From positions 248,001 to 312,000 of the forward strand of contig QKYL01000001.1 of NCBI GenBank assembly GCA_003255745.1: DNA of 64,000 nt. The letters are read 5' to 3'. The first letter of the stretch is position 1. Each line of letters begins with the position of its first letter. The position numbers and the translations under genes were made by a program. The notes under the pieces are model-generated. The model was not told the origin of the DNA. It did not search any database and saw nothing but the letters and a program-made list of their open reading frames with translations. The stretch is from Paracoccus saliphilus (lineage in GTDB: Bacteria > Pseudomonadota > Alphaproteobacteria > Rhodobacterales > Rhodobacteraceae). Shown here piece after piece: positions 18,574-29,876 of this stretch.

Positions 18574-18650
18574 CGCTACCAGCCAAAGCATCCTGTGCTC
18601 CAGCAGGGCGCCCGCTACCAGCGAAGCATCCTGTGCCCCAGCAGGGCGCC
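18574..18650. repeat. Tandem duplication (38/39 bp) covering the 3' end of nrsF
   Basis: Two adjacent copies, 18574-18612 and 18613-18650, share CGCTACCAGC, AAGCATCCTGTGC and CCAGCAGGGCGCC and differ at only a few positions plus one indel. The inner copy contains the last codons and TAG stop of nrsF; the outer copy lies beyond the stop. Confidence 0.85.
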
Positions 18651-19256
18651 CACCGTGCTGATGGCCAGGATCGCGATGCCGTACCAGGTGGTGAAGAACA
18701 GCGGCGAATCCTCGGTGCAATAGAGCGCGTAACCGGCAGCAGCCCCGCCGGAGGCTGCAAGGCCGACCAGTCCCCCCGTCAGTCCGGGCCGCAGGGCTGC
18801 GCCACGACGGAACAGAACCAGTCCCGTGATCGTGGCCGGGGCCGCCAACAGGCTGATCGACAGAAGGCAGGCCAGGGCGCTGCTGCCCATGATGCCGGCG
18901 GCGACCTCGCCCATCGGCGTCTGGGTCAGGCGCGACAGGAACAATCCCAAGGCTGCCGCGACGGGAACAGCCAGCGGCCAAAGCGCCACTTTGGCATCGG
19001 GCCGCGCAGACCGCAGCGCCAACAGAAGAGCCGAAAGGGCAATGGTCATGGGCAACATGAGCTTCAAAAGAAGCTCGGGTTCGCCAATCGCTTGGCCAAG
19101 GTCGGCGCGCGGACCTGCCAGCAACAGGAAAAGACCGACGGCCAAGGCGATCGCGCCGAAAAGCCACGCTGCGGCACCGGGTCCGGAGAGCCGGGGCGGA
19201 GGCGGGCAGCTGGCCAATTGCGCAATCAGCGCTTCGGTGGTGGGTCGGGTCGTCAT
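18615..19256 (-). CDS. nrsF: NrsF-type anti-sigma factor (DUF1109), integral membrane
   Basis: Inner-membrane anti-sigma factor of the adjacent ECF sigma factor. The 213 residues form about six membrane segments (for example WLFGAIALAVGLFLLL, near residues 31-46) after a short cytoplasmic N-terminus. Cys130 (SSALAC) and Cys180 (YALYC) fall in membrane-proximal positions 50 residues apart. As I recall, Caulobacter NrsF has cysteines at 131 and 181 that are needed to sense chromium and cadmium. The start overlaps the sigma stop by 4 bases. The gene ends inside a tandem repeat. It is the last of the eight-gene bufferin operon. Confidence 0.85.
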   Translation of the reverse strand: MTTRPTTEALIAQLASCPPPPRLSGPGAAAWLFGAIALAVGLFLLLAGPRADLGQAIGEPELLLKLMLPMTIALSALLLALRSARPDAKVALWPLAVPVAAALGLFLSRLTQTPMGEVAAGIMGSSALACLLSISLLAAPATITGLVLFRRGAALRPGLTGGLVGLAASGGAAAGYALYCTEDSPLFFTTWYGIAILAISTVGALLGHRMLRW

Positions 19257-19825
19257 TTCATCCTCTCTGCCAGGGCTGCAAGCCGTTTCAGGGCGCGGTG
19301 CAGGGCAATGCGAACCGCGCCGGCGGTCAGGCCCAGGCCGGCGGCAACGTCTTCGGTGGTTTTCCCTTCCAGCTTGACCGCCCGGACAAGTGCGGCGGAC
19401 CGTTGGTCGATCATGTCCAGCATCCTGTGCGCGTCCCGGACGGCCAAGGGAGCCGGACCCGGTGTGGCAACCAGAAGATGCGCCACATCCTCGATCGGCA
19501 ATTCGACCGCACGGCCGCGTCGCCGGCAGGCATCGCCGATCTTGTGGCGCGCTACCGCATAAAGCCAAGGCCGAACGGGAGTTTCGGGCTGCCAGCTTTG
19601 ACGCTTGAGATGAACGGCCAGCAGAACCTCTTGAAGGACATCTTCGTGAAGGTCGGCGGGCAGACCGCCGGCGCGGGCACGGATCAGGCGGCGCAGCATC
19701 GGCGTAACCTCGGTCAGAAAACACAGAAATGCCGCGGCGTCGCCATCATTGGCCCGCGCCAGCAGCGCCTCCCAGCTGACATCGGCGTTCAGGGCAGCCT
19801 CCTGTCGTCCGTGGACGTTGCGCAT
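19253..19825 (-). CDS. sigF: ECF sigma factor, SigF type
   Basis: ECF sigma-70 protein of about 190 residues. Region 2 spans roughly residues 30-95 (DVLQEVLLAVHLKRQSW and PVRPWLYAVARHKIGDACRRRGR) and region 4 residues 125-180 (TTEDVAAGLGLTAGAVRIALHRALKRL). The start at 19825 (MRNVHGRQEA) has GGGG about 8 bases upstream; in-frame ATGs at 19888 and 19876 would overlap the thioredoxin gene's end. Pairing with an NrsF anti-sigma identifies it as SigF-like, known in Caulobacter to answer heavy-metal stress and drive bufferin genes. Here it is encoded in the same operon as its expected target. Confidence 0.88.
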   Translation of the reverse strand: MRNVHGRQEAALNADVSWEALLARANDGDAAAFLCFLTEVTPMLRRLIRARAGGLPADLHEDVLQEVLLAVHLKRQSWQPETPVRPWLYAVARHKIGDACRRRGRAVELPIEDVAHLLVATPGPAPLAVRDAHRMLDMIDQRSAALVRAVKLEGKTTEDVAAGLGLTAGAVRIALHRALKRLAALAERMK

Positions 19826-19884
19826 TCTAACCCCGCCCACCAAGTTCGGGCAATGCCCTGAACGCGGCAGGCCCATCGCCTGTG

Positions 19885-20295
19885 TCATGTCATCGCGGCC
19901 GCAAGAGCCCGGTCCAGCAGCGCCTTGATCTCGTCCCGGCCGGTGCCTGCGACGATGCGGCCGATTTCCTCGCGCCCGTCCAGCACAACCAGGGTCGAGC
20001 GGCGGGGGATGGCCAAGGCCTGCGACAGCTCGCCCCGGCCATGCTGGTCCCAATCCACGGTGATGAAGCGGATCGCCTTGTCATAGGCAGGGTTTTCGGC
20101 CCGTAATGCGGTAATGACCCGGTCCTGCGCGGCGCAGGTGCTGCACCAGCTGGCCCAGAAGTCCAGCAGCACGACCTGGCCCGCATCCATGAGGCCTTCG
20201 GCCAGACCGGGCGCATAGAAGGTCCGCTCGTTTGCCCGCGCCGCGGGGGCCAGGGCGATGGCGGCGGCAGAGATCAGCAGGGTTCGACGGTTCAT
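19885..20295 (-). CDS. Exported thioredoxin-like protein in the bufferin operon
   Basis: Periplasmic thiol-redox protein of 136 residues. The start at 20295 gives a signal peptide with twin arginines (NRRTLLISAAAIALAPAARA). The thioredoxin active site is DFWASWCSTC (Cys51 and Cys54). At the place where thioredoxins have a cis-proline the protein reads PRRSTLVV, so a serine (residue 100) replaces it. It sits 14 bases behind ccdA, the membrane transporter of electrons that would keep it reduced, and upstream of sigF. Its likely job is redox upkeep of periplasmic cysteines, possibly those of the bufferin; that is inference. Confidence 0.83.
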   Translation of the reverse strand: MNRRTLLISAAAIALAPAARANERTFYAPGLAEGLMDAGQVVLLDFWASWCSTCAAQDRVITALRAENPAYDKAIRFITVDWDQHGRGELSQALAIPRRSTLVVLDGREEIGRIVAGTGRDEIKALLDRALAAAMT

Positions 20296-20309
20296 GATAT
20301 CCTCGTGGT

Positions 20310-21017
20310 TCAGAATGTGACGGAAAGATCGATAAGCCAGGCGGGCAGCCATGCGATCAGCGCGGCCTCGGCCCGGTGATGCAGCCCCAGGAACAGCGCA
20401 AGCCCCACGCCGATAAAGGCCACGCCCAAGGCCGGGCGCGCGCGGGCCGCGATTTCGGCCATGCGGGTTGCATTGCGTCGCATGAACCCGCGCAACCCAT
20501 AGGCGCCCGCCAGGATCAGCGTCGATACGCCAAAGGCGAATGCCGTCATGATGGCACCCGCCCGCCCAAGGTCCTGGCCCGCGCTGGCCAATGCGATGGC
20601 GGCACCCAGTGTTGGGCCGATGCAGGGGCTCCAGACCGCGCCCAGAAGCGTCCCGCCGACGAACTCGCGCCCAAGTCCGCGTCCCTGCGGCATCATGGCA
20701 TCCGCCGAAGCCGACAGGCCGGCAGTGGCAACGGCAAAGCGGCGGTTCAGCACAGGCGTCAGCATCACCGCTCCAAAGGCCACCATCGCCAGCGCAGCCA
20801 CTTGGCCGACATCCTCGGGGTAAAGGCCCAGGGCCGGCCCAAGTGCCGCAATCCCAAGGCCCAGGGTGACAAAGGACAGGCTCATCCCGGCGGCCAGCGC
20901 CAGCGGCCCGCGCGGATCGGCACCCAGGCTGGCTGTCAGGACGATCGGCAGGACCGGCAGGACGCAGGGGTTGATCAGTGTCAGCAGTCCCGCGACATAT
21001 GCGAAGACCAGCTCCAT
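20310..21017 (-). CDS. ccdA: CcdA-type cytochrome c biogenesis / thiol-disulfide transporter
   Basis: Integral membrane DsbD-beta/CcdA-family protein that carries electrons from cytoplasmic thioredoxin to periplasmic acceptors. The start at 21017 (MELVFAYVAG) gives 235 residues with six membrane segments. The redox cysteines are Cys18 in LINPCVLPVLP and Cys132 in VWSPCIGPTLG, the two conserved ones of the family. It begins 1 base after the DoxX stop and precedes an exported thioredoxin by 14 bases, making a two-protein periplasmic reducing branch inside the bufferin operon. Confidence 0.9.
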   Translation of the reverse strand: MELVFAYVAGLLTLINPCVLPVLPIVLTASLGADPRGPLALAAGMSLSFVTLGLGIAALGPALGLYPEDVGQVAALAMVAFGAVMLTPVLNRRFAVATAGLSASADAMMPQGRGLGREFVGGTLLGAVWSPCIGPTLGAAIALASAGQDLGRAGAIMTAFAFGVSTLILAGAYGLRGFMRRNATRMAEIAARARPALGVAFIGVGLALFLGLHHRAEAALIAWLPAWLIDLSVTF

Positions 21018-21018
21018 C

Positions 21019-21477
21019 TCAGTGCGCCCCTGCGGGGCGGTCCAACCCCAGCAGGTGGTCGACCGAGGCCCGGCCCGGCCCATGCGCCACAACCGCAAGC
21101 AGCGCGGCCGCCCACAGCCCATGCGTCACCCAGGCTTCGGGATAGACAAAGATCTGGATCACCGCCGTCATCGCAAGCAGCCCCAAGGCCGACAGCCGCG
21201 TCATCAGGCCCAGCACCATCAGCACGGGCAGCGCGTGTTCGGCCAGCGTCGCCATCACCGCGGCCCATGGGGCAGGAATGATCGGCAAGGCGTACTCGTG
21301 CTGGAACAGGAACCAGGTGCTGTCCTTGATTGAAAAGCCTTCGACCTTTCTCCGGCCCGACTGCCAGAATATGTTGGCCGGGAAGATCCGCAGCATCAGC
21401 GCCACCAGATCGGGGGGGATCCGCGAGAGCAGGTTGTTTGTTTGTTTGATCACGGCGTCACTCCCTGATCCCTGCAA
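21019..21477 (-). CDS. DoxX-family membrane protein of the bufferin operon (BufD-like)
   Basis: A 152-residue membrane protein of the DoxX family with about four hydrophobic segments (for example [20 protein letters not shown]). The N-terminal part contains [20 protein letters not shown], the typical DoxX opening. It overlaps the bufC end by 20 bases and is separated from ccdA by 1 base. DoxX genes are regular partners of DUF692/DUF2063/DUF2282 clusters. Its biochemical role is not settled; membrane quinone or redox coupling has been proposed for relatives. Confidence 0.85.
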
Positions 21478-22201
21478 GGGCGCCTGCGCGTATCAGGCTG
21501 ACAAGGCGCGGCTGCGGATCGTGATGGGGCTGGACCCGCCGTGCCTTATGCGCGGCAGAGGCAAGCGTCCGCCCCTCAGCCAGCCCCTCGATCAATGCCG
21601 CGTCGCCCCGGCTTATCGCCTCCACCGGCACGGCCAGGGACGCATCGCGCAGGATCAGCGCGATCTGGGGTCCGCTGGGCAGGGGGAGGTGCTGTGCCTG
21701 CGGCTGGTGGCGCGCCCAGATTGCCACCGCAGGATGGGAAAGCCGCAGCACGATGACCGAAGGGTGCAGATGCAGGACCAGCCCTTCGAAATCGGCTGCG
21801 GCCAGCGCGGACGGGTTCAGCGGGGGCGCATCCGCCGCATGATAGGCAAGACCACGCGCGAACTCGATCCGGGCGACATCCGCCATGTAGGGCCAATCGC
21901 TCAGGGCAGGAAAACCTTCCAGAAAATCCGGAAAGTCATCGCCCCATTCGGCCAGAACCGGCGTCCGCGGCGGCGCCTCGGCGATGTAGGCGCGGGCCAT
22001 GACGCGAAAGAAGTCGTCGCCGACCAGCTGCCGGATGACCGGGAACCTTCGCGTCAGGGCGTCAGACAGGCTGACGGCGACATTGTTGCGGTAAACCGAG
22101 AAGCGTCGCTGGATTTCGGACGGTTCGCGTGCCGTGACGCCCGGCGGCAGACCGGCCCCGGCAAGCGCATCCTGAAAGCGGGACAAAAGGTCAGCATGCA
22201 T
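21458..22201 (-). CDS. bufC: DUF2063 protein, bufferin maturation partner (BufC-like)
   Basis: A 247-residue protein whose N-terminal third is the DUF2063 domain ([20 protein letters not shown], residues about 28-47, then [17 protein letters not shown]). In known MNIO systems it acts as the peptide-recognition partner of the DUF692 oxidase. The start at 22201 ([10 protein letters not shown]) overlaps bufB by 11 bases; the earlier in-frame ATG would lie deep inside bufB. The C-terminal part is less conserved and is rich in hydrophobic strands, with no cofactor motif recognised. Confidence 0.87.
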
Positions 22202-23039
22202 GGGCCGGCACTCCGATCTGCGCCAGCAACCGTGCGGCCCGTGCGGCCTCGGCGGCCAGAACCGGCCATTCCGGCAGGTCGTTGTCCCATTCAACCAGCG
22301 TAGGTTTCGGCCCGATTTGGGCTATGACCTCGGCATAAAGGGTCCAGACAGGGTCTGCCACGGCCGCCCCATGACTGTCGATCAGCAGCGGCCCTGTTGG
22401 CAGATCCTCGGCCTCGTGGCCGCCCAGGTGGATCTCTCCAACCGCGTCCATCGGGTATCGCGACAGATAGCCGCGCGGATCAACACGGTGATTGGTGCAG
22501 GAAACAAAGACGTTGTTGATGTCCAGAAGCAGCCCGCAGCCGGTACGGGCGACCACCTCGGCCAGAAACTCTGTTTCAGGAATGTCGGACTGGGCGAAGA
22601 TCACATAAGTGGCCGGGTTTTCCAGCAGCATCCTGCGCCCAAGCGCAGCCTGCACCTGATCGACATGATCGCAGACCAGCGCAAGCGTTTCGGCGGTGTA
22701 AGGCAGCGGCAGCAGGTCGTTCAAGTAATGGTCGCCGTGGCTGGACCATGCCAGGTGCTCTGAAAAGCTCTCTGGCTGGTAGCGGTCGCACAGCTGGCGC
22801 AGCCGGGACAGGTGCCTCTGGTCCAGCCCGCCCGCACCGCCGACGGAAAGTCCGACGCCGTGGATCGAAAGGGCATGATCCGCCCGCAAAGCGGTCAGTT
22901 GCACATGGGGCATCCCGCCTGCGCCCAAATAGTTTTCGGCATGAACCTCGAAGAACGAGATTTCCGGTGCACCGCGGCGGATCGCGGCGAAATGTTCAGG
23001 CTTGAAGCCGACACCGGCTCCGGGGGGCAGGTCTGTCAT
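22191..23039 (-). CDS. bufB: DUF692 multinuclear non-heme iron oxidase (BufB-like)
   Basis: MNIO-family (DUF692, MbnB-like) TIM-barrel enzyme that oxidatively modifies cysteines of a partner peptide. The 282-residue protein has the family opening [12 protein letters not shown] and the metal-ligand regions [47 protein letters not shown] and DSHGAAV, ending with [16 protein letters not shown]-type spacing (GGAGGACGCC) precedes the ATG at 23039. It lies 50 bases after bufA and overlaps bufC, the canonical precursor-oxidase-partner order. Confidence 0.93.
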
Positions 23040-23089
23040 GGCGTCCTCCGTGAAGGGCGGGCGCGGCGGCTGGCCGCACCCGGCCGGCT

Positions 23090-23395
23090 TTACGCCGGGA
23101 TGTCGCGCTCCAGCGGCTCAAGCGCGCCTTCGCGTGCGCCGCCATCCGCGGCGGCGGGCAGTTCCATCGACAGGCAGGTGCCCGCCGGGACCATCTTCCA
23201 AGCGTTGCCCTGGTAATCCATGGTCGAGGTCCCGGCGCAGGTCGTGCCCGGCCCGGCTGCACAATCGTTCTGCCCGGCCAGCGCCACACCGTAGCACTTT
23301 TCCATCTCCTGCGCCTGCACGGCGGTGGCGGCCATCGCGCTCAAGGCACAGGCCAGCGAGGCGCCCAAGGCAAGACGTGACGATGTTGTGGTCAT
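23090..23395 (-). CDS. bufA: Bufferin precursor peptide (DUF2282, BufA-like)
   Basis: Exported 101-residue cysteine-containing precursor, the substrate of the MNIO next door. The start at 23395 has GGGAGAAC 6-7 bases upstream. A signal peptide ends near AVQAQ (residue 29). The mature core holds four cysteines, at 34 (EKCYGVA), 45 (QNDCAAG), 53 (TTCAGTS) and 74 (PAGTC), with the family motif [14 protein letters not shown] between the last two. In characterised bufferins the two central cysteines become thiooxazoles that bind copper. After residue 80 there is an acidic, low-complexity tail (about 20 residues) that short family members lack. Confidence 0.9.
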
Positions 23396-23443
23396 GTTGT
23401 TCTCCCTGATCTCGGAAAGGCCCAAGCGCCTTTCATGGTGCAA

Positions 23444-23469
23444 ATCGCAGCAGGATCCGGCGGCGTTAC
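23444..23469 (-). promoter_or_regulatory. SigF-type ECF promoter of the bufferin operon
   Basis: On the minus strand, GTAACG (23464-23469) is followed after exactly 16 bases by CGAT (23444-23447). This resembles the GTAACC-N16-CGAA pattern reported, as I recall it, for Caulobacter SigF promoters. The -10 element is 48 bases from the bufA ATG, leaving a short leader. The operon encodes a SigF/NrsF pair, so autoregulation is expected. Confidence 0.65.
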
Positions 23470-23528
23470 GCATGTCCGTGAATATTTTGCCGAACCTGCG
23501 TTTCCGTCGGCGACCTGGCAGAGTGCTA

Positions 23529-24297
23529 GGGTCAGGGCGCATAACCAGTAGATGACGGCTGCGGCGAGGGCGATGGCTGAGAGAAAGACCTTTGGACAGC
23601 GATCATACCGTGTTGCCGTGCGCCTCCAGTCCTTGAGCCTGCCGAACATGATCCCGATGCGGTTGCGGCGTTTGTATCGGCGCTTGTCGTATCCGACGGG
23701 TACCCTGCGTTGCTTTCCATCAGGGATACAGGCGCGTCTTCTTTTGTTCTGCAACGCTTCCCGGAACCGATCGGCGTCGTAGCCGCTGTCCCCGAGCAGC
23801 CATTTGACCTTGGGCAGGCTGCCGAGGAGCGCCCGCGTACCAATGTGGTCGCTGACCTGGGCCTGCGGTGACGAACAGGTCGATCGGCCGCCCTTGGCTG
23901 TCGCATATGGCATGCAGTCTGGTGTTCATCCCACCCTTGGTGCGACCGATCAAGCGACCGCGCCCCCTTTTCCCAGGGCCATGCTGGTCGCGATGCGCTA
24001 TGCTTTAAGATAGGTCGCGTCGATCATCACGGTCTTCCTTTTGCGGTGTTCAGCCGCCAGGCCCATTATTGTCCGTGGGAACACGCCTTTCTCGCTCCAC
24101 CGCTTACAGCGGCTGTAGAGCGTCTTGTGCGGCCCACAGGCCGCAGGAGCGTCTCGCCAGCGCAAGCCATTGCGGTTGATGAAGATAATCCCGCTCAGCA
24201 CGCGCTTGTCATCAACCCGGGGCTTTCCGTGCGACTTTGGAAGGAAGGGCTTCAGACGCGCCATCTGCTCCTCCCTCAGCCAGAAAAGATCGCTCAT
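23529..24297 (-). pseudogene. Broken IS5-family transposase
   Basis: The N-terminal part (MSDLFWLREEQMARLKPFLP, then GIIFINRNGLRWRDAP) is intact to TYLKA, where a TAG replaces the usual histidine codon. A further frame change occurs at a shortened G-run (AAAAGGGGGC) before the RLIGRTKGGMN segment. An extra C follows in TAG(C)QVSD. The remaining frame shows LLGDSGYDADRFREAL and the DDE-domain end YKRRNRIGIMFGRLKDWRR. The G-run could be a programmed -1 site in relatives, but the upstream TAG and the extra C rule out an active enzyme. The frame runs through the IS end without its own stop. Confidence 0.85.
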
Positions 24298-24362
24298 GTC
24301 ACCGCTCCGTCTTCAAAGCCGTGGAACCACGCAGCACCACGAAAATCGATGCATCCTGAACC
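23529..24362 (-). mobile_element. Degenerate IS5-family (IS427-group-like) insertion sequence, 834 bp
   Basis: The ends are defined by imperfect terminal inverted repeats: GGGTCAGGGCGCAT at 23529-23542 and the complement of GGTTCAGGATGCAT at 24349-24362 (11 of 14 match). Both ends are flanked by TA, consistent with a 2-base target duplication. Its length fits IS427-type elements. It carries one transposase gene with several lesions, so it cannot move by itself. It lies 59 bases from the bufA -35 element on one side and abuts a truncated gene on the other. Confidence 0.8.
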
Positions 24363-24606
24363 TAAGAAAGCGGTGAAAGACCCAAGACGATGTCGGCGTC
24401 GAACGGGTGCAGCAGCGGCTTGAGCCGTCTCATCAGGGCGAACTGCATCCCCACAAGCGACAGGACCGCAAACCCCAGCCCGCGCGCCAGGTCGCGAGGG
24501 AAACCGCGTGCGGCGGGTGGATTGCCCCACAGGATGACCAAGAAAGGCAGGACCAGCAGCACCCCCCAGCAGCAGCCAGACCAGCGCACGCAGCCAGACG
24601 GCTGAT
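24363..24606 (-). pseudogene. Remnant of a ferric-reductase-like transmembrane gene, cut at the IS
   Basis: Pieced together, the frame reads LRALVWLLLG, then VLLVLPFLVILWGNPPAARG, then LARGLGFAVLSLVGMQFAL and LLHPFDADIV. This is the N-terminal membrane portion of ferric-reductase/ferredoxin-reductase-like proteins. A 6-G run at 24562-24567 shifts the frame by one base within the first membrane helix. The homology stops about 20 bases before the IS end at 24362, and a TAG falls on the junction. The missing heme- and FAD/NAD-binding parts are not on the other side of the IS, so sequence was lost. The start is not certain. The remaining 24607-24788 holds no clear gene. Confidence 0.6.
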
Positions 24607-24788: not shown

Positions 24789-25517
24789 ATGAACGACGCG
24801 CCGATGCCCTATTGCGGCCCCGCGCCCGAGCCCGGACAGCTGTGGCGAGCCTGGAACTTCGACCCGGTGCTGCTGACCGGGCTGGTGGTCTTTGCGATCT
24901 TGTTGTGGTTTCGCATAGAACGTCAGGGCCGGGCGGGGGCGGCGCTTGGCCTGATGGCGCTTGTTGTGGCCTTTGTATCGCCGCTCTGCGCGATGACTGT
25001 GGCGCTGTTCTCCGCACGGGCGGCGCATCATTTGTTGCTGACAACGGTTGCGGCGCCTGCTCTGGCCGTCGCCCTGCCGCTTTTGCCGCGGCTGCCGGCC
25101 ACCCTGTCACTTTCGGCAGTGTCGGCGGCGATCATCGCCTGGCACCTGCCGTCGGTCTATTGGGCCATCTGGTCGTCGGACACGCTGTACTGGGTAATGC
25201 AAGCGGCCATGCTGGTTCCGGCATGGATCTTCTGGTCTGCGATTTTGGCGCCCGGTATCACCGCCGATTCCGCGCTGCGCCGGGCCCTGTTCGTGGGCGG
25301 ACTGGCCGGCATCATGGGTCTTGTCGGTGCCGCGCTGACCTTTGCGCCGGGCGTGCTTTACATCCAGCACATCGACGGCGCCGCGCGGTGGGGCCTGCCT
25401 GCTCTGGCAGACCAGCAGTTGGCCGGGCTGATCATGTGGGTGCCGGGGTTCTTGCCGCTGGCGGCGCTGGCGTTCCTGATGCTGCGTCGCGGATGGCAGC
25501 AGGGATTCGCGGCATGA
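24789..25517 (+). CDS. CtaG-type cytochrome c oxidase assembly protein
   Basis: Polytopic membrane protein of 242 residues, of the caa3_CtaG family (distinct from Cox11). It supports assembly of CuA-type oxidases. About seven hydrophobic segments are seen, with family-typical histidine patches ARAAHHLLLTT (near residue 78), AWHLPSVYWAIW (near 118) and LYIQHIDGAARWG (near 190). It starts the oxidase cluster and overlaps the next gene by four bases (ATGA). An internal ATG at 24804 is an alternative start. Neighbouring CuA subunit II and subunit I genes fit its assembly role. Confidence 0.87.
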   Translation: MNDAPMPYCGPAPEPGQLWRAWNFDPVLLTGLVVFAILLWFRIERQGRAGAALGLMALVVAFVSPLCAMTVALFSARAAHHLLLTTVAAPALAVALPLLPRLPATLSLSAVSAAIIAWHLPSVYWAIWSSDTLYWVMQAAMLVPAWIFWSAILAPGITADSALRRALFVGGLAGIMGLVGAALTFAPGVLYIQHIDGAARWGLPALADQQLAGLIMWVPGFLPLAALAFLMLRRGWQQGFAA

Positions 25518-26026
25518 TCGCTGCTCTCAAGTTCGTGCACCTGGCGGCCATGCTGTGCTGGTGCGCGGGGCTTATCGCCCTGCCGCTGTTGCTGAGCCTT
25601 TACGGCGGAGCTTGGCGCCGTGGCCACGGCAAAGGACAGTTGCAGGCGCGCTATGCAGAATTCCGTCTGATCACGCATTACGGATATGTGGCCTTTGTCA
25701 CGCCGGCGGCGGTCATCGCCATCGCTTCGGGAACAGGGCTGATCTTCGCGGCGGGGATCTTTGACCTGTGGTTCGCGGCCAAGCTGGCCCTAGTGTCGGG
25801 GATGGCCTTGGTCCACGCCTGGATCGGCCACTTCATCCTGATGTCTGCCGAACAGCGCGGCACCTCCAAGCTGCCCTCGCCGTTGATCGCACTGGGAATG
25901 GCGCTGCCCCTGATCTTCGGGGTGCTGTGGCTGGTCCTGGCCAAGCCCGATCTGTCGGGCCTGACGGACTGGATGCCGGATTTCATGCTGAAGCCCTGGG
26001 GCCAGATGCACTGGGGACAGTCATGA
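25514..26026 (+). CDS. CopD/HemJ-like integral membrane protein
   Basis: A 170-residue protein with four hydrophobic segments. Conserved-looking histidines lie in LKFVHLAAMLCWCAG, FRLITHYGYVAFV and LVHAWIGHFIL, the pattern of CopD-domain and HemJ-like membrane proteins that handle copper or heme. The start overlaps ctaG by four bases (ATGA). Being inside an oxidase operon, it may supply copper or heme to the oxidase; the specific function is not known. Convergent DUF2231 gene follows after 11 bases. Confidence 0.72.
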   Translation: MIAALKFVHLAAMLCWCAGLIALPLLLSLYGGAWRRGHGKGQLQARYAEFRLITHYGYVAFVTPAAVIAIASGTGLIFAAGIFDLWFAAKLALVSGMALVHAWIGHFILMSAEQRGTSKLPSPLIALGMALPLIFGVLWLVLAKPDLSGLTDWMPDFMLKPWGQMHWGQS

Positions 26027-26037
26027 CCGCTTCGACA

Positions 26038-26559
26038 TCACCCTCCTGTTTCGCGCTGCGTGCCGATCCGGTAATCGAAAACCAGCTTGCCGCCGTGCCA
26101 GCCGGTGATCCCTGTCATGACCGCCGCCAAAACGGAGATCAGCGCACCCCAGGGCAGCACCGCACCCACCGGGTCGCCAAGGCGAAAGCCCCAGTTCAGA
26201 CCCAGAAGCGACAGCAGCATCACAGCCAGCACGAAATGGGTCCAGCTGGCGCTGCGGATGCGGATGCCCGACACCATCAGCAGTTCGAACGTTCCAGTCA
26301 CGCCGGCCAGAACCCCCATGCCAAAGGCAAATCCGGCAGCCCACAGCGCAACCCGAGGCCAGAATTCGTCCCCTGTCAGCCAATAGAACGCATCGGCGCC
26401 AAAGACGGAAAATGCCAGCGCGATGGGAAAGGCGACCATCATCGCGTGCAGCGGATGGCCGGCAAGGGCGATCTTGCTTTCGGTCTGGTCGAAGGCCACA
26501 TGCTCCTCGATCGGGTCCGTCAGCCGGCGGCGTTGCTTCCACGAATATTTCTGACGCAT
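26038..26559 (-). CDS. DUF2231 membrane protein
   Basis: A 173-residue inner-membrane protein with four hydrophobic segments and the DUF2231 opening LAGHPLHAMMVAFPIALAFS (residues 32-51). The start at 26559 (MRQKYSWKQRRR) gives a basic cytoplasmic N-terminus. It is inserted in reverse orientation between the CopD-like gene and subunit II of the oxidase. Its start faces the subunit II gene, so the two may share a promoter region around 26560. Function unknown, though such genes are often found beside oxidase or cytochrome genes. Confidence 0.78.
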   Translation of the reverse strand: MRQKYSWKQRRRLTDPIEEHVAFDQTESKIALAGHPLHAMMVAFPIALAFSVFGADAFYWLTGDEFWPRVALWAAGFAFGMGVLAGVTGTFELLMVSGIRIRSASWTHFVLAVMLLSLLGLNWGFRLGDPVGAVLPWGALISVLAAVMTGITGWHGGKLVFDYRIGTQRETGG

Positions 26560-27336
26560 GCGGCGACCCTTCCGTTTCACATCCGCAGGTACAAGCCCGC
26601 GGCTCTGCTGGCGGTTCCGCTGCTGGCGGGTTGCGAAGGGCCGCTGAGCACCTTGGAGCCAGCAGGTCCCATCGCCTTCGAGATCGCCCGGCTGTGGTGG
26701 GTCATGCTGATCGGGGCCGGGCTGATCACCACGCTGGTGATGGTCATGCTGGCCATGGCCCTTCTTCGCAATTCGATGGCTGGCGACCCCGCGCGATCGG
26801 AACGGCGCTGGATCTATGGCTGGGGCCTGGGCTTCACGTTGACCGGGCTGACCCTGCTGTTGGGCTTTGCCTTGTGGACCGGGGAACGGATGCTGGCGCG
26901 CGACGATGGCGCGCTGACGGTGCGGGCCCAGGCTTCGCAATGGGTCTGGAATTTCGTGCAGCCGGGACCGGATGGACAGCCGGTCGCGACCCAGGGCGTG
27001 CTTTACGTCCCGGCCGGGCGGCCCTTCGACGTCTACATCACCTCGACCGACGTAATCCACGGCTTTTGGGTCCCGCAGCTGGGCGGCAAGATGGACGCGA
27101 TCCCGGGTCATCCCAACCTGCACCGGCTGATGGCCGCGACGCCCGGACGGTACGAGGGGCAGTGCGCCGAATTCTGCGGCCGGGGCCATGCCTTTATGCG
27201 GTTCGAGGTGGTCGCCTATGATCCCGCGGGTCCCGTGCCCGATTTCATCAGCGACCCGCAGCTGACCCGTGAACCGCCCCTGTCGGATGCACCCGACATC
27301 GTCACCGACCTGCCCGCCGAGGAAGCCCGCCCATGA
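26500..27336 (+). CDS. Cytochrome c oxidase subunit II with CuA site (start uncertain)
   Basis: Lipoprotein-type subunit II that receives electrons through CuA. A signal sequence RRYKPAALLAVPLLAGC ends in a lipobox cysteine. Two membrane helices follow, then a cupredoxin domain with TDVIHGFWVPQLGGKMD and the complete CuA motif QCAEFCGRGHAFM near the end. The start is a problem: there is no ATG, GTG or TTG shortly before RRYK in this frame. The nearest in-frame ATG is at 26500, which adds 27 residues and overlaps the divergent DUF2231 gene. An ATG at 26558 lies in another frame, so an indel is possible. It overlaps the next gene by 4 bases. Confidence 0.82.
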   Translation: MLLDRVRQPAALLPRIFLTHAATLPFHIRRYKPAALLAVPLLAGCEGPLSTLEPAGPIAFEIARLWWVMLIGAGLITTLVMVMLAMALLRNSMAGDPARSERRWIYGWGLGFTLTGLTLLLGFALWTGERMLARDDGALTVRAQASQWVWNFVQPGPDGQPVATQGVLYVPAGRPFDVYITSTDVIHGFWVPQLGGKMDAIPGHPNLHRLMAATPGRYEGQCAEFCGRGHAFMRFEVVAYDPAGPVPDFISDPQLTREPPLSDAPDIVTDLPAEEARP

Positions 27337-29876
27337 CCGATGCCAGCCTGACCTCTGGGCAAGAGGATACCGCCCAAGCCCTGGCCGACATTGCGTCGAA
27401 CCCGCCGCAGCGCGCGTTGGGGCTGCACCGGCAGCTTGACCGGGTCTGGTCGGATCTGCCGGGCTGGCGCGGCTTCTTCACCTCGGTCAACCACGGCACG
27501 ATTGGCCTGCGCTTCATGGCAACGGCCTTTGTCTTTTTCGCCATCGGCGGCGTTCTGGCCATGCTGATCCGGGCGCAGCTGGCAACGCGGGACGGCGCCT
27601 TCCTGGACAGCGACCTTTATAACCAGATCTTCACGATGCATGGCAGCATCATGATGTTCCTGTTTGCCATCCCCCTGCTGGAGGGACTGGCCCTGTGGCT
27701 TCTGCCCAAGATCCTGGGCGCGCGGGACATGGCCTTTCCGCGCCTCAGTGCGCTTGGCTATTTCTGCTACCTGTTCGGCGGCACGGTGATCGTGCTGTCG
27801 CTGCTGTTCGGGGTGGCGCCCGACGGCGGCTGGTTCATGTATGTGCCGCTGACCGACAAGACCTATTCACCCGGCATCAACGCCGACGTTTGGCTGTTGG
27901 GCATCACCTTTGTCGAAATTTCGGCCATGGCCGCAGCGGTCGAGATCACCGTGACCATTTTGCGCTGTCGTGCCGCCCACATGCCCCTGACGCGCATGCC
28001 GTTGATGGGCTGGTACCTGCTGGGAACGTCGGTGATGATGCTGGTGGGCTTTCCGCCGCTGATTCTGGGGTCGATCCTGCTGGAGGTGCAGCGCGCCTTC
28101 GACTGGCCGTTCTTCGATGTGGCGCGCGGCGGTTCCCCCATGCTGTGGCAGCACTTGTTCTGGCTGTTCGGTCACCCCGAGGTTTATATCATCTTCCTGC
28201 CGGCCGCGGGCGCTCTGTCGACGATCATCCCGGTCCTAAGCCGCACCCCGATCCTGGGATATGGCGCACTGGTCGCGGCCGTGATCGGGCTGGTGTTCCT
28301 GTCCTTTGGCCTTTGGGTGCATCACATGTTCACGGTGGGCATCCCGCACATGGCGCTGGCCTTTTTCTCGGCCGCCTCGGCGCTGGTGGCGGTTCCGACG
28401 GCGGTGCAGGTTTTTGCCTGGATCGGCACGATGTGGGAAGGCCGCGTCCAGTTCCGCCTGCCCATGCTGTATGTCATCGGCTTTTTCGCGACCTTCGTGA
28501 TGGGCGGACTGACGGGGGTCATGCTGGCCATGGTTCCCTTCAACTGGCAGGCGCATGACACGCATTTCGTCGTGGCCCACCTGCATTACGTCCTGACCGG
28601 CGGCTTCGTCTTTCCGATGCTGGCGGCGGTCAGCTACTGGATGCCGCTGATCTGCGGCCGCTGGCGGATCAGGGGCCTCGGCGAGGCCGCGTTCTGGCTG
28701 ATCCTGATCGGCTTTCACGGCACCTTCTTCATCATGCACCTGACCGGCCTGCTGGGCATGCCGCGGCGGGTAAGCGTCTATCCCGGAAATCCTGAATGGG
28801 AATGGCTGAACCTGGTTTCGTCCATCTTCGGGATGATCCAGTCGGCGGGCTTCGCGCTGTTCGCCTTTGACCTGTTCATGCAGTGGATGTTCGGGCGGCG
28901 CAGCTGGCGCAACCCGTGGCAGGCGCCTTCGCTGGAATGGGCGATGCCGATGCCGGCGCCCTCCTACAACTTCGCGTCGCTGCCGGGACCGCGCCAGCCC
29001 GATGCCGGCGCCATGCTGCCCCTGGCGCGGGGCGAGGGGCTGCTGCCCGGCGCACCGCGCGGCTGGCGCGAGACGCTGGTGGTCGAGCCGGGCAGCGGTC
29101 GCCCGCAGCACGTGGCGGTGCTGGCCAGCAACACCGCGCTGCCGGTGGCCACCTCTGCCGCGATTGGCAGCTTTTTTGCGATGATGCTGGCGGGCTTCTA
29201 CTGGCTGGCGCCCCTGGGCATCCTCGCCACGCTGGTGGTCGCGTGGAAATGGGGCGCGATCATGGGCACCGACCGGGACCACGCGCCCGTCGAGGTTGCA
29301 CCGGGGATGCAGCTGCCGCTGCATTGGCAGGTGCGCAACACGCTTGGCTATACCGGGACAGTAGCTCTGCTGGTGGCAGATTCGACGTTGTTCGGGTCGT
29401 TGCTGTTCGGGGTGGGCTTTCTGACCGTTGTCGCGCCAAACTGGCCTGCGCCCCCAAGCGGTATCGCCACCTGGCCGATGCTGGTGATGTCGGCGGGCGC
29501 GCTGACGCTAATGGCCTTGGGTGCCTTGGCGGCACGGCTGGCCGAGGCGCGGCGGGCCACGGGTGCAGCGTTCTGGACCCGGCTCGGACTGCTGTGCTGT
29601 GCGGGGGCATTGGCCCTGCTGGGCGGCATTGCCCTTGGTCTGGATGACCCGACACGGCATGCGCGGGACGCCCTGCGAGGGGCGACTGTTGCCTTTGCCG
29701 TTGTTCACGGCGTCATCGCGCTGATGCTGGCGCTGCGGGCCGACGCGGACGCCCGCAGCGGCCGGATCGGCGCGCAGCGGCGCGGGGCGATCCCGCCCTG
29801 GCAGCTGTTCCAGCTGTTCTGGCTGGGCACCTCGGCGGCCTCGATGGCGCTGATCCTGACGCAGGAGGTGCTTTGA
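27333..29876 (+). CDS. Fused cytochrome c oxidase subunit I-III
   Basis: Heme-copper oxidase subunit I (about residues 40-540) joined to a subunit III-like domain (about 600-847). Heme and copper ligands are present: His103 (TMHGSIMMF), His281 and Tyr285 (GHPEVYI), His330/331 (WVHHMFT), and His416/418 (VVAHLHYV). Asp132 (GARDMAFPR) and Glu283 of the D pathway are kept. However, the K-channel lysine is Gln359 (PTAVQVFAW), and the D-channel asparagines are replaced (Ser139 in PRLSALGY, and a leucine in the N121 position). Chain length is 847 residues. It overlaps subunit II by 4 bases and the next gene by 1. Confidence 0.92.
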   Translation: MTDASLTSGQEDTAQALADIASNPPQRALGLHRQLDRVWSDLPGWRGFFTSVNHGTIGLRFMATAFVFFAIGGVLAMLIRAQLATRDGAFLDSDLYNQIFTMHGSIMMFLFAIPLLEGLALWLLPKILGARDMAFPRLSALGYFCYLFGGTVIVLSLLFGVAPDGGWFMYVPLTDKTYSPGINADVWLLGITFVEISAMAAAVEITVTILRCRAAHMPLTRMPLMGWYLLGTSVMMLVGFPPLILGSILLEVQRAFDWPFFDVARGGSPMLWQHLFWLFGHPEVYIIFLPAAGALSTIIPVLSRTPILGYGALVAAVIGLVFLSFGLWVHHMFTVGIPHMALAFFSAASALVAVPTAVQVFAWIGTMWEGRVQFRLPMLYVIGFFATFVMGGLTGVMLAMVPFNWQAHDTHFVVAHLHYVLTGGFVFPMLAAVSYWMPLICGRWRIRGLGEAAFWLILIGFHGTFFIMHLTGLLGMPRRVSVYPGNPEWEWLNLVSSIFGMIQSAGFALFAFDLFMQWMFGRRSWRNPWQAPSLEWAMPMPAPSYNFASLPGPRQPDAGAMLPLARGEGLLPGAPRGWRETLVVEPGSGRPQHVAVLASNTALPVATSAAIGSFFAMMLAGFYWLAPLGILATLVVAWKWGAIMGTDRDHAPVEVAPGMQLPLHWQVRNTLGYTGTVALLVADSTLFGSLLFGVGFLTVVAPNWPAPPSGIATWPMLVMSAGALTLMALGALAARLAEARRATGAAFWTRLGLLCCAGALALLGGIALGLDDPTRHARDALRGATVAFAVVHGVIALMLALRADADARSGRIGAQRRGAIPPWQLFQLFWLGTSAASMALILTQEVL

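Follow-up and report, generated by a model that had tools for sequence, protein, structure and literature searches.

A bufferin operon of Paracoccus saliphilus with a putative SigF-type promoter, its own sigF-nrsF genes and a ccdA-thioredoxin pair

Introduction

Why would a bufferin operon encode both a sigma factor with its anti-sigma factor and a membrane thiol electron carrier with a thioredoxin (Trx)? The question is raised by eight adjoining minus-strand open reading frames (ORFs), bufA-bufB-bufC-doxX-ccdA-trx-sigF-nrsF, which run from 23395 to 18615 of a 64,000-nt stretch of Paracoccus saliphilus DNA (contig QKYL01000001.1, 248,001-312,000). The whole stretch is called the window. Our reading, to which we give a probability of about 0.6, is of a self-amplifying operon for envelope stress, of the extracytoplasmic function (ECF) group ECF16 (SigF/NrsF) kind, that combines two periplasmic responses to copper or oxidants. 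As bufferin genes and ccdA-trx share cis-elements in relatives, we argue for a functional link by co-regulation, and the jobs of the two are probably linked.

Results

Gene content of the operon

The genes are separated by gaps of 50 (bufA-bufB), 4 (bufC-doxX), 1 (doxX-ccdA), 14 (ccdA-trx) and 59 bases (trx-sigF), and overlaps of 11 and 4 bases are found at bufB-bufC and sigF-nrsF; five of the seven junctions are therefore gaps of 1-14 bases or overlaps. The start of sigF is uncertain, as its frame stays open further upstream. Each of the eight proteins scored above the curated Pfam cut-off (Table 1). The ORFs and Pfam matches confirmed the arrangement given by an earlier sequence-only reading of the window, namely eight genes on one strand with 50- and 59-base gaps and otherwise tight junctions, and its naming of the DUF2282, DUF692 and DUF2063 families (PF10048, PF05114 and PF09836). 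The P. saliphilus genome contains one DUF2282 match and one NrsF match.

BufB passed the NCBIfam model MNIO_BufB (NF050167; 382 against a cut-off of 310) and has 3bww as structural kin, and CcdA matches the CcdA structures 5vkv and 2n4x. BufA reached 18.7 bits with the NCBIfam BufA2 model (NF050166; cut-off 60) and is thus not classed as a Buf2 precursor. BufC, DoxX and NrsF fell below the narrower NCBIfam models HvfC (64.7 versus 142), HvfX (54.2 versus 80) and the NrsF equivalog (54.7 versus 300). SigF has the ECF domains, and its best NCBIfam sigma model gave 177.5 against a cut-off of 198 in a comparison without an ECF16 model.

The cysteines are conserved. The four of BufA occur in 52, 52, 52 and 51 of 52 aligned BufA proteins, the CcdA pair in 103/103 homologues, the two of the Trx CxxC site in 98/102 and 102/102, and both positions of the NrsF pair in 51/51. 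The BufA N-terminus resembles a signal peptide when judged by eye. An RRx[FLIVM] pattern, counted as a pattern match only, precedes the active site in 86 of 96 Trx homologues, and Trx is probably exported. With a four-Cys DUF2282 precursor, a BufB-type MNIO, DUF2063 and DoxX, the predicted products are those of a Buf1 cluster.

Table 1. Features of the locus in window coordinates
Feature	Position	Strand	Evidence or remark
SigF (ECF16)-type promoter, putative, GTAAC-N17-CGA	23445..23469	-	74 bases 5' of bufA start
bufA, DUF2282 (Buf1) precursor, 101 aa	23090..23395	-	PF10048 89.9 bits
bufB, MNIO (DUF692) maturase	22191..23039	-	PF05114 (MbnB_TglH_ChrH) 349.6 bits
bufC, DUF2063 partner protein (PME type 1)	21458..22201	-	PF09836 88.1 bits; start 22201
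doxX, DoxX family membrane protein, GTG start 21453	21019..21453	-	PF07681 59.5 bits
ccdA, short membrane thiol electron carrier, two-Cys pair, 235 aa	20310..21017	-	PF02683 DsbD_TM 31.4 vs 27.1 cut-off
trx, thioredoxin, WCSTC site, Tat-like MNRRTLL N-terminus	19885..20295	-	PF00085 31.5 vs 23.5 cut-off
sigF, ECF sigma factor, ECF16/SigF-like	19253..19825	-	Sigma70_r2 35.7, r4_2 32.7, both above cut-off
nrsF, membrane anti-sigma factor, conserved Cys pair	18615..19256	-	PF06532 146.5 vs 26.8 cut-off
Fragmented IS4/5-type transposase, outside operon, borders promoter	23548..24297	-	PF13586 42.7, PF13340 70.9 bits, separate frames

The eight-gene order and other layouts in relatives

The species-genome scan with the window CcdA found 301 relatives, and its best 80 loci were analysed as stretches extending up to 8 kb either side of ccdA, some of which end at contig ends. 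In all 80, a same-strand Trx frame lies after ccdA or overlaps it. The eight-gene order was present in 10 of them, nine complete and one (L036) running into the contig end inside sigF, and also in two loci from the genus, L127 and L123, the latter on the same contig as L002. Because the same order recurs in these loci, from Paracoccus, Tabrizicola, Gemmobacter and Rhodobacter, it is not a product of chance. In 14 further loci, 13 of them with a labelled sigF, ccdA-trx is divergent from nrsF and the stretch lacks bufferin genes; one locus (L019) has bufABC-doxX and ccdA-trx without sigF; and 55 have neither bufferin genes nor nrsF within the stretch. Among 296 family genomes, four (G000, G499, G554 and G555) had adjoining DoxX and CcdA of the window type in a search that scored at most six candidates per genome, so that absences there are not final. 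We conclude that the eight-gene unit is genuine but rare; every example seen so far is from related Rhodobacterales.

DUF2282 is present in 25 of 101 Paracoccus genomes. The bufferin layout is eight-gene in three of these, six-gene (bufABC-doxX-sigF-nrsF) in six, and a divergent nrsF-sigF/bufferin arrangement in 13; L106 is likewise divergent as far as its contig reaches, and in L108 and L129 sigF is absent from the stretch. Among the six-gene loci, nrsF of L118 and bufB of L115 are each split over two frames. Among the divergent loci, only bufA and part of bufB were recognised in L114, and bufB is broken in L126. The occurrence of sensor and target together, which had been taken as new, is thus not supported as a novelty, and sigma and NrsF genes in Buf1 clusters had already been reported (PMC12452194; citations by PMC number, here and below, are to parts of the papers). 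With G071:C65, L118 (G001) makes two Paracoccus genomes in which nrsF is split into two frames, which, if real, would leave SigF unchecked.

In other alphaproteobacteria, L143 has the layout promoter-trx-ccdA-sigF-nrsF, and L142 has bufABC-doxX, sigF-nrsF and trx-ccdA side by side. Nine proteins neighbouring stand-alone and other ccdA-trx loci comprised an EamA transporter, chorismate synthase, AMP nucleosidase, a DNA-binding protein, adenine deaminase, an esterase, a DnaJ protein and two without family; we inferred no partner of ccdA-trx from them. Three alphaproteobacterial genomes of 1.8-2.4 Mb (L145, L146 and L147) carry a CcdA/DsbD-like frame of about 550 aa beside sigF-nrsF, and L145 also has two DUF2282 genes.

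A SigF-type promoter precedes bufA and many ccdA-trx pairs

The published ECF16 promoter consensus is (T/C)GTAAC-N17-CGAA (PMC8315932), also given as GTAACC-N16-CGAA (PMC3511200). The putative window site upstream of bufA, CGTAAC-N17-CGAT, departs from the first of these by one base, the last letter. In the form GTAAC-N17-CGA it is the sole exact match in the 64-kb window; shuffled sequences had a mean of 0.54 matches, and on its own the site is not significant. Its weight comes from a fixed position in relatives rather than from this single match. The exact motif lies at -74 to -81 of bufA in 8/12 eight-gene and 6/6 six-gene loci, and 5' of divergent bufA in 11/15 (14/15 allowing CG[AT]), whereas none was found upstream of ccdA (0/12), trx (0/12) or sigF (0/11) in the eight-gene loci. 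With five permutations of the motif as controls, matches numbered 0-1 in the eight- and six-gene sets and at most two in any set. This pattern is consistent with the self-regulated unit proposed in the sequence-only reading.

The exact motif also lies 5' of ccdA-trx in 11 of the 14 loci divergent from nrsF-sigF. In other alphaproteobacteria it was found at 5/11 ccdA-trx modules with NrsF and 0/6 without, a check that covered 11 of 15 genomes with NrsF and CcdA (that of the window and three with long DsbD-like frames were left out) and six of nine NrsF-less ones. The L142 site, about 890 bases 5' of the trx frame and after nrsF, was missed by that count. Stand-alone loci among the 80 had the exact motif in 3/54; in its CG[AT] form it was present at 3/5 with NrsF versus 1/39 without (44 of 54 were tested for NrsF; p = 0.003), and in NrsF-bearing Paracoccus genomes it lay 48 bases upstream of stand-alone ccdA-trx in 3/3, one of them exact. 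These sites suggest that ccdA-trx forms a SigF-regulon module by itself, a new finding; it often lies next to sigF-nrsF in loci without bufferin genes.

The motif lacks the specificity needed for a genome-wide search, since GTAAC-N16/17-CGA matched 30 times and a reversed control pattern 209 times. Downstream frames inspected by eye at 19 of the 29 other sites in the P. saliphilus genome gave no convincing further SigF target; the clearest gene start was response-regulator-like.

A second element is shared by bufferin and ccdA-trx upstream regions

Expectation-maximization (EM) on 29 bufA upstream regions, 20 from NrsF-less genomes and nine lying apart from sigF in divergent-type genomes, yielded the motif cGTgac.CACgggcccGTGA.TgG, mostly 85-115 bases 5' of bufA, with a log-likelihood of 303 versus 82-90 in shuffles. 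A separate EM on the 85 bases 5' of 28 NrsF-less ccdA genes yielded CtgACg.g.a.GTGA (198 versus 46-62 shuffled). An initial run on 160 bases had recovered the end of the upstream gene, and that motif was discarded. The two motifs have the core AC-N6-GTGA in common, and the ccdA matrix exceeded the 95% shuffle level in 15/20 bufA upstream regions at width 16 and 13/20 at width 22.

In NrsF-less genomes the core occurs in 21/28 ccdA (100 bp) and 15/20 bufA (160 bp) upstream regions; none was found upstream of bufB (0/20) or trx (0/28) in these genomes, and random windows of the same loci contained it in 66/2880 (100 bp) and 106/2880 (160 bp), i.e. 2-4%. These counts cover 28 of 39 NrsF-less stand-alone ccdA loci (the 11 omitted being mostly close relatives) and 20 of 36 NrsF-less DUF2282 genomes. 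In NrsF-less Rhodobacterales bufferin operons (L198-L217) the element is often doubled, with AC-N6-GTGA repeated at 15 bases, about 85-115 bases 5' of bufA.

The core is also present in SigF-type loci (13/23 bufA and 8/14 ccdA upstream regions; in L009, L025 and L027, among those 13, only near the -10 region). It stands 4-6 bases 5' of GTAA[CT] in 10/15 divergent bufA and 9/14 ccdA promoters and in 0/28 sigF promoters of the same loci. The combined comparison, 19/29 versus 0/28, gives p = 4e-8, a value that, like our other p-values, overstates independence because the loci are related. At this fixed place the strict core was found in 1/12 eight-gene bufA promoters (8/12 allowing G[TC]GA) and in 2/7 six-gene ones, including L108. 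Outside Rhodobacterales the element was seen at one examined promoter, L162. As bufA and ccdA lie at separate places in these genomes, descent from a single locus does not explain the sharing. In Rhodobacterales, AC-N6-GTGA thus appears to be a putative regulatory element 5' of many bufferin operons and ccdA-trx pairs and not of sigF, also in genomes lacking NrsF, which is likewise new.

History of ccdA-trx and its co-occurrence with NrsF

Trees of CcdA, BufB and SigF were built by IQ-TREE. The 13 eight-gene rows form one clade in the CcdA tree (100/93), next to which stand L005 (from an NrsF-bearing genome and with a SigF motif 5' of ccdA), then L019/L033/L079, and then the divergent-type rows. 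In the BufB tree L108 and L184 group with the eight- and six-gene loci in one 21-row clade (95/91), within which four six-gene Paracoccus loci and four Paracoccus eight-gene rows form a clade of eight (99/94); two other six-gene loci branch lower, unsupported. In the SigF tree some six-gene loci fall within that Paracoccus group (98/94), and others branch below the eight-gene groups (91/78 to 97/86). These trees are most simply explained if ccdA-trx was captured once by a six-gene operon and later lost at least once. L184 retains only a partial ccdA after doxX, and the same genome has a second ccdA-trx beside sigF-nrsF (L011).

A survey of 192 alphaproteobacterial genomes, with CcdA called at E 1e-15, found NrsF in 34, CcdA in 24 and DUF2282 in 74; at most 15 and 14 candidates per genome were scored, and absences are not final. 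CcdA was present in 15/34 genomes with NrsF versus 9/158 without (p = 1e-7). Among the NrsF genomes it was present in 12/24 with DUF2282 versus 3/10 without. These counts include five frames of 409-575 aa (G109, G150, G161, G184 and G198) that are probably DsbD-like; subtracting them by hand leaves 12/34 and 7/158. In Paracoccus, CcdA genomes number 6/101, and all six have NrsF, found in 35/101 overall (p = 0.0013); four of the six have DUF2282 versus 25/101 overall (p = 0.03). DUF2282 is present in 15/16 genomes with divergent or SigF-promoted ccdA-trx. The mostly stand-alone ccdA-trx genomes have DUF2282 in 40/45 and NrsF in 5/45, and we draw no association with DUF2282 from the first of these counts; L006 and L008 belong to both the 16- and the 45-genome sets.

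Flanking DNA and an apparent DoxX-CcdA fusion

A transposase broken over at least two frames ends about 80 bases 5' of the window promoter and reads toward bufA, so that read-through into the operon is conceivable. No inverted repeats of at least 12 bases were found at 23380-24500. Past this insertion element, about 1.4 kb from bufA, begins a heme-copper oxidase set (24789-29876) with Caa3_CtaG and COX2 by Pfam and an 847-aa frame that looks subunit I/III-like by eye; the proximity may be chance.

On the P. liaowanqingii plasmid NZ_CP040764 (L182:4569-5735), the annotation gives a single protein for doxX and ccdA. Compared with P. gahaiensis, the G run before the join differs by one base, and the DoxX tail is then out of frame. 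Among the matches listed from the 296 family genomes there was no other stop-free match with a DoxX front and CcdA; that in G499 had a stop. We treat the fusion as a probable frameshift or sequencing error and as no evidence of interaction.

Discussion

The genes, the promoter, the conserved catalytic and sensor cysteines and the cis-elements shared across loci are observed in the sequences. A single transcript, its signal, the direction in which electrons flow and, most of all, the client of Trx are inferred. Oxidation of, or metal binding by, the NrsF Cys pair would free SigF; the need for NrsF cysteines, like the form of ECF16 promoters, is taken by analogy from the literature on relatives. 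SigF would then transcribe from the bufA promoter and so bring about synthesis of all eight proteins, its own inhibitor included. In the cytoplasm BufB-BufC would convert the central BufA cysteines to thiol-bearing 5-thiooxazoles, and exported BufA would chelate copper, both by analogy with published Buf1 systems. CcdA would carry electrons from the cytoplasmic thioredoxin pool across the membrane to exported Trx, which would reduce oxidised periplasmic thiols. Its likeliest clients would be the metallophore thiols, the NrsF Cys pair (whose reduction would shut down the response) and other damaged envelope proteins.

Several results weigh against this reading. In 22 of the 25 Paracoccus bufferin genomes ccdA-trx is missing from the bufferin stretch, and at E 1e-20 only four of the 25 have CcdA and 21 have none; on at least one occasion the operon has probably lost ccdA-trx. 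At the class level CcdA tracks NrsF and not DUF2282: without NrsF it was found in 1/50 genomes with DUF2282 versus 8/108 without. In genomes with divergent nrsF-sigF/ccdA-trx the bufferin genes are mostly at another locus, and where bufA lies apart from sigF in divergent-type genomes, only 3/14 have the exact SigF motif. The ccdA matrix at width 30 was found in only 5/20 bufA upstream regions, and in the reverse test the bufA matrix was found in 6/33 (width 24) and 4/33 (width 30) ccdA upstream regions, so that the core is shared and the flanks are not. No second element was found in the window, P. gahaiensis or P. liaowanqingii. Finally, sigma-70-like matches precede trx (20321-20294) and sigF (19853-19824), three in the region versus 0.7 in shuffles, and an internal promoter within the operon is possible.

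The capture and loss suggested by the trees, the L184 remnant, the sister operons without ccdA-trx and the 21 bufferin-bearing Paracoccus genomes without a close homologue together indicate that ccdA-trx is accessory to bufferins. The suggestion that cysteine-redox upkeep is part of bufferin function or maturation is partly supported. The shared cis-elements, with and without NrsF, make a thiol-redox link with bufferins more likely, whereas a requirement for maturation is disfavoured by the probable loss of ccdA-trx, its rarity in Paracoccus and the tracking of NrsF. The sequence-only reading was right in direction and stronger than the operon alone allows.

Nearly as probable as not is that CcdA-Trx performs general ECF16 periplasmic repair, supplying electrons to methionine sulfoxide reductase (Msr) or to damaged cysteines, shares the operon as a SigF target and never acts on bufferins. 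The class-level association of CcdA with NrsF, and not with DUF2282 once NrsF is accounted for, fits this account, as do the 14 loci whose stretches contain nrsF-sigF and ccdA-trx but lack bufferin genes. ECF16 regulons repeatedly include Msr genes (PMC8315932), and the Bradyrhizobium pair Bll1026/Bll1027 was proposed to feed periplasmic Msr (PMC3420878). However, none of the eight operon proteins has an Msr domain in the Pfam scan, and AC-N6-GTGA, absent from all 28 sigF promoters, ties ccdA-trx to bufferins even where NrsF is missing.

More tentative is the proposal that bufferins are redox-maintained metallophores whose thiooxazole thiols would be kept reduced, and reloadable with copper, by Trx/CcdA. 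The pairing would be hard-wired through SigF and an AC-N6-GTGA-binding factor, with the eight-gene operon as its fused form. A reductant for bufferins is plausible because a fontiphorin fragment, a thiooxazole peptide, has two alkylatable thiols and aggregates, which was ascribed to disulfides (PMC12668002). Caulobacter bufferin 1 contains 5-thiooxazoles (as cited in PMC12668002), and Buf1 has a disulfide between its first and last Cys (PMC12452194). Co-regulation does not distinguish BufA, NrsF, Msr and general repair as Trx clients, and all are live rivals.

It is possible, though doubtful, that the locus is split between two transcripts: the SigF promoter would drive bufABC-doxX, and an internal housekeeping promoter either ccdA-trx-sigF-nrsF or sigF-nrsF alone. 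The weak sigma-70-like matches before trx and sigF would allow this, and Caulobacter sigF transcription is partly under another regulator (PMC3511200); against it are the close spacing at five of the seven junctions and the lack of an exact SigF motif before ccdA, trx and sigF. A reset loop in which periplasmic Trx reduces the NrsF Cys pair and turns SigF off is unlikely: CcdA-Trx is associated with NrsF, the pair is invariant, a SigF promoter lies 5' of ccdA-trx in many NrsF genomes and the second NrsF Cys of a relative (C179) is described as periplasm-exposed (PMC8315932), but 19/34 NrsF genomes lack a CcdA match (E 1e-15) and 40/45 genomes of mostly stand-alone ccdA-trx loci lack NrsF. A parallel for such a reset is the Streptomyces SigR system, in which cytoplasmic thioredoxin resets RsrA.

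ScsBCD and DsbD also combine a membrane electron carrier with a periplasmic thioredoxin-fold partner and are tied to copper tolerance; compared by description only, the window differs in its short 235-aa CcdA. Also among the closest known systems are the Buf1 clusters (captophorins), such as that of Caulobacter, likewise with four-Cys DUF2282, MNIO, DUF2063, DoxX and adjoining SigF/NrsF (PMC3511200, PMC12452194). The statement in the sequence-only reading that Caulobacter SigF/NrsF lies apart from its bufferin targets was wrong: sigF-nrsF (CC3253-CC3252) adjoins DUF2282-DUF692-DUF2063-DoxX (CC3254-CC3257), and it is the second bufferin operon, CC2907-CC2905, that lies elsewhere (PMC3511200). 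The window differs from Caulobacter in that all genes are co-directional, the SigF-type promoter is found only 5' of bufA, and ccdA-trx stands between doxX and sigF. Further conserved genes occur in Buf1 clusters in extremely low proportions, and the main text of PMC12452194, which states this, mentions neither thioredoxin nor DsbD nor CcdA.

A Trx/DsbD-like pair in an ECF16 regulon is, like sigma/NrsF genes in Buf1 clusters, already in print. The Bradyrhizobium EcfF regulon includes such a periplasmic pair, and its anti-sigma factor OsrA resembles NrsF as a two-Cys DUF1109 protein. Thioredoxin Bll1026 and DsbD-like Bll1027 have the top fold changes in the table for the osrA mutant and are co-regulated with Msr; the terms 'DUF692' and 'DoxX' are absent from the text available, and the likeness is by description (PMC3420878). 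In Sinorhizobium the ECF16 sigma factor of RpoE7-EcfR7 lies beside a DUF692/DUF2063 operon (SMb20530-SMb20527) with TGTAAC/CGAA promoters, but the arrangement is divergent and no ccdA-trx is named among the mapped targets in the parts available (PMC6180224). Haemophilus RpoE2 and Neisseria SigE are ECF sigma factors controlling a DoxX/UPF0276/DUF2063 cluster and MsrAB, but they have another, small anti-sigma factor and a sigma gene distant from the DoxX cluster, and no CcdA-Trx is named there in the parts available (PMC7907618). No publication joining CcdA-Trx to bufferins was found by title or abstract among the matches listed.

The part most worth following is the sharing of SigF promoters and of the second element. 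AC-N6-GTGA offers a handle for a second bufferin regulator in NrsF-less Rhodobacterales. Copper-handling peptides of the bufferin type form a large family, whose upkeep after export is not addressed in the parts of the literature examined. If a dedicated thiol reductase acts on them, bufferins would serve repeatedly instead of once, and a piece absent from their known pathway would become testable in Paracoccus and its Rhodobacter relatives.

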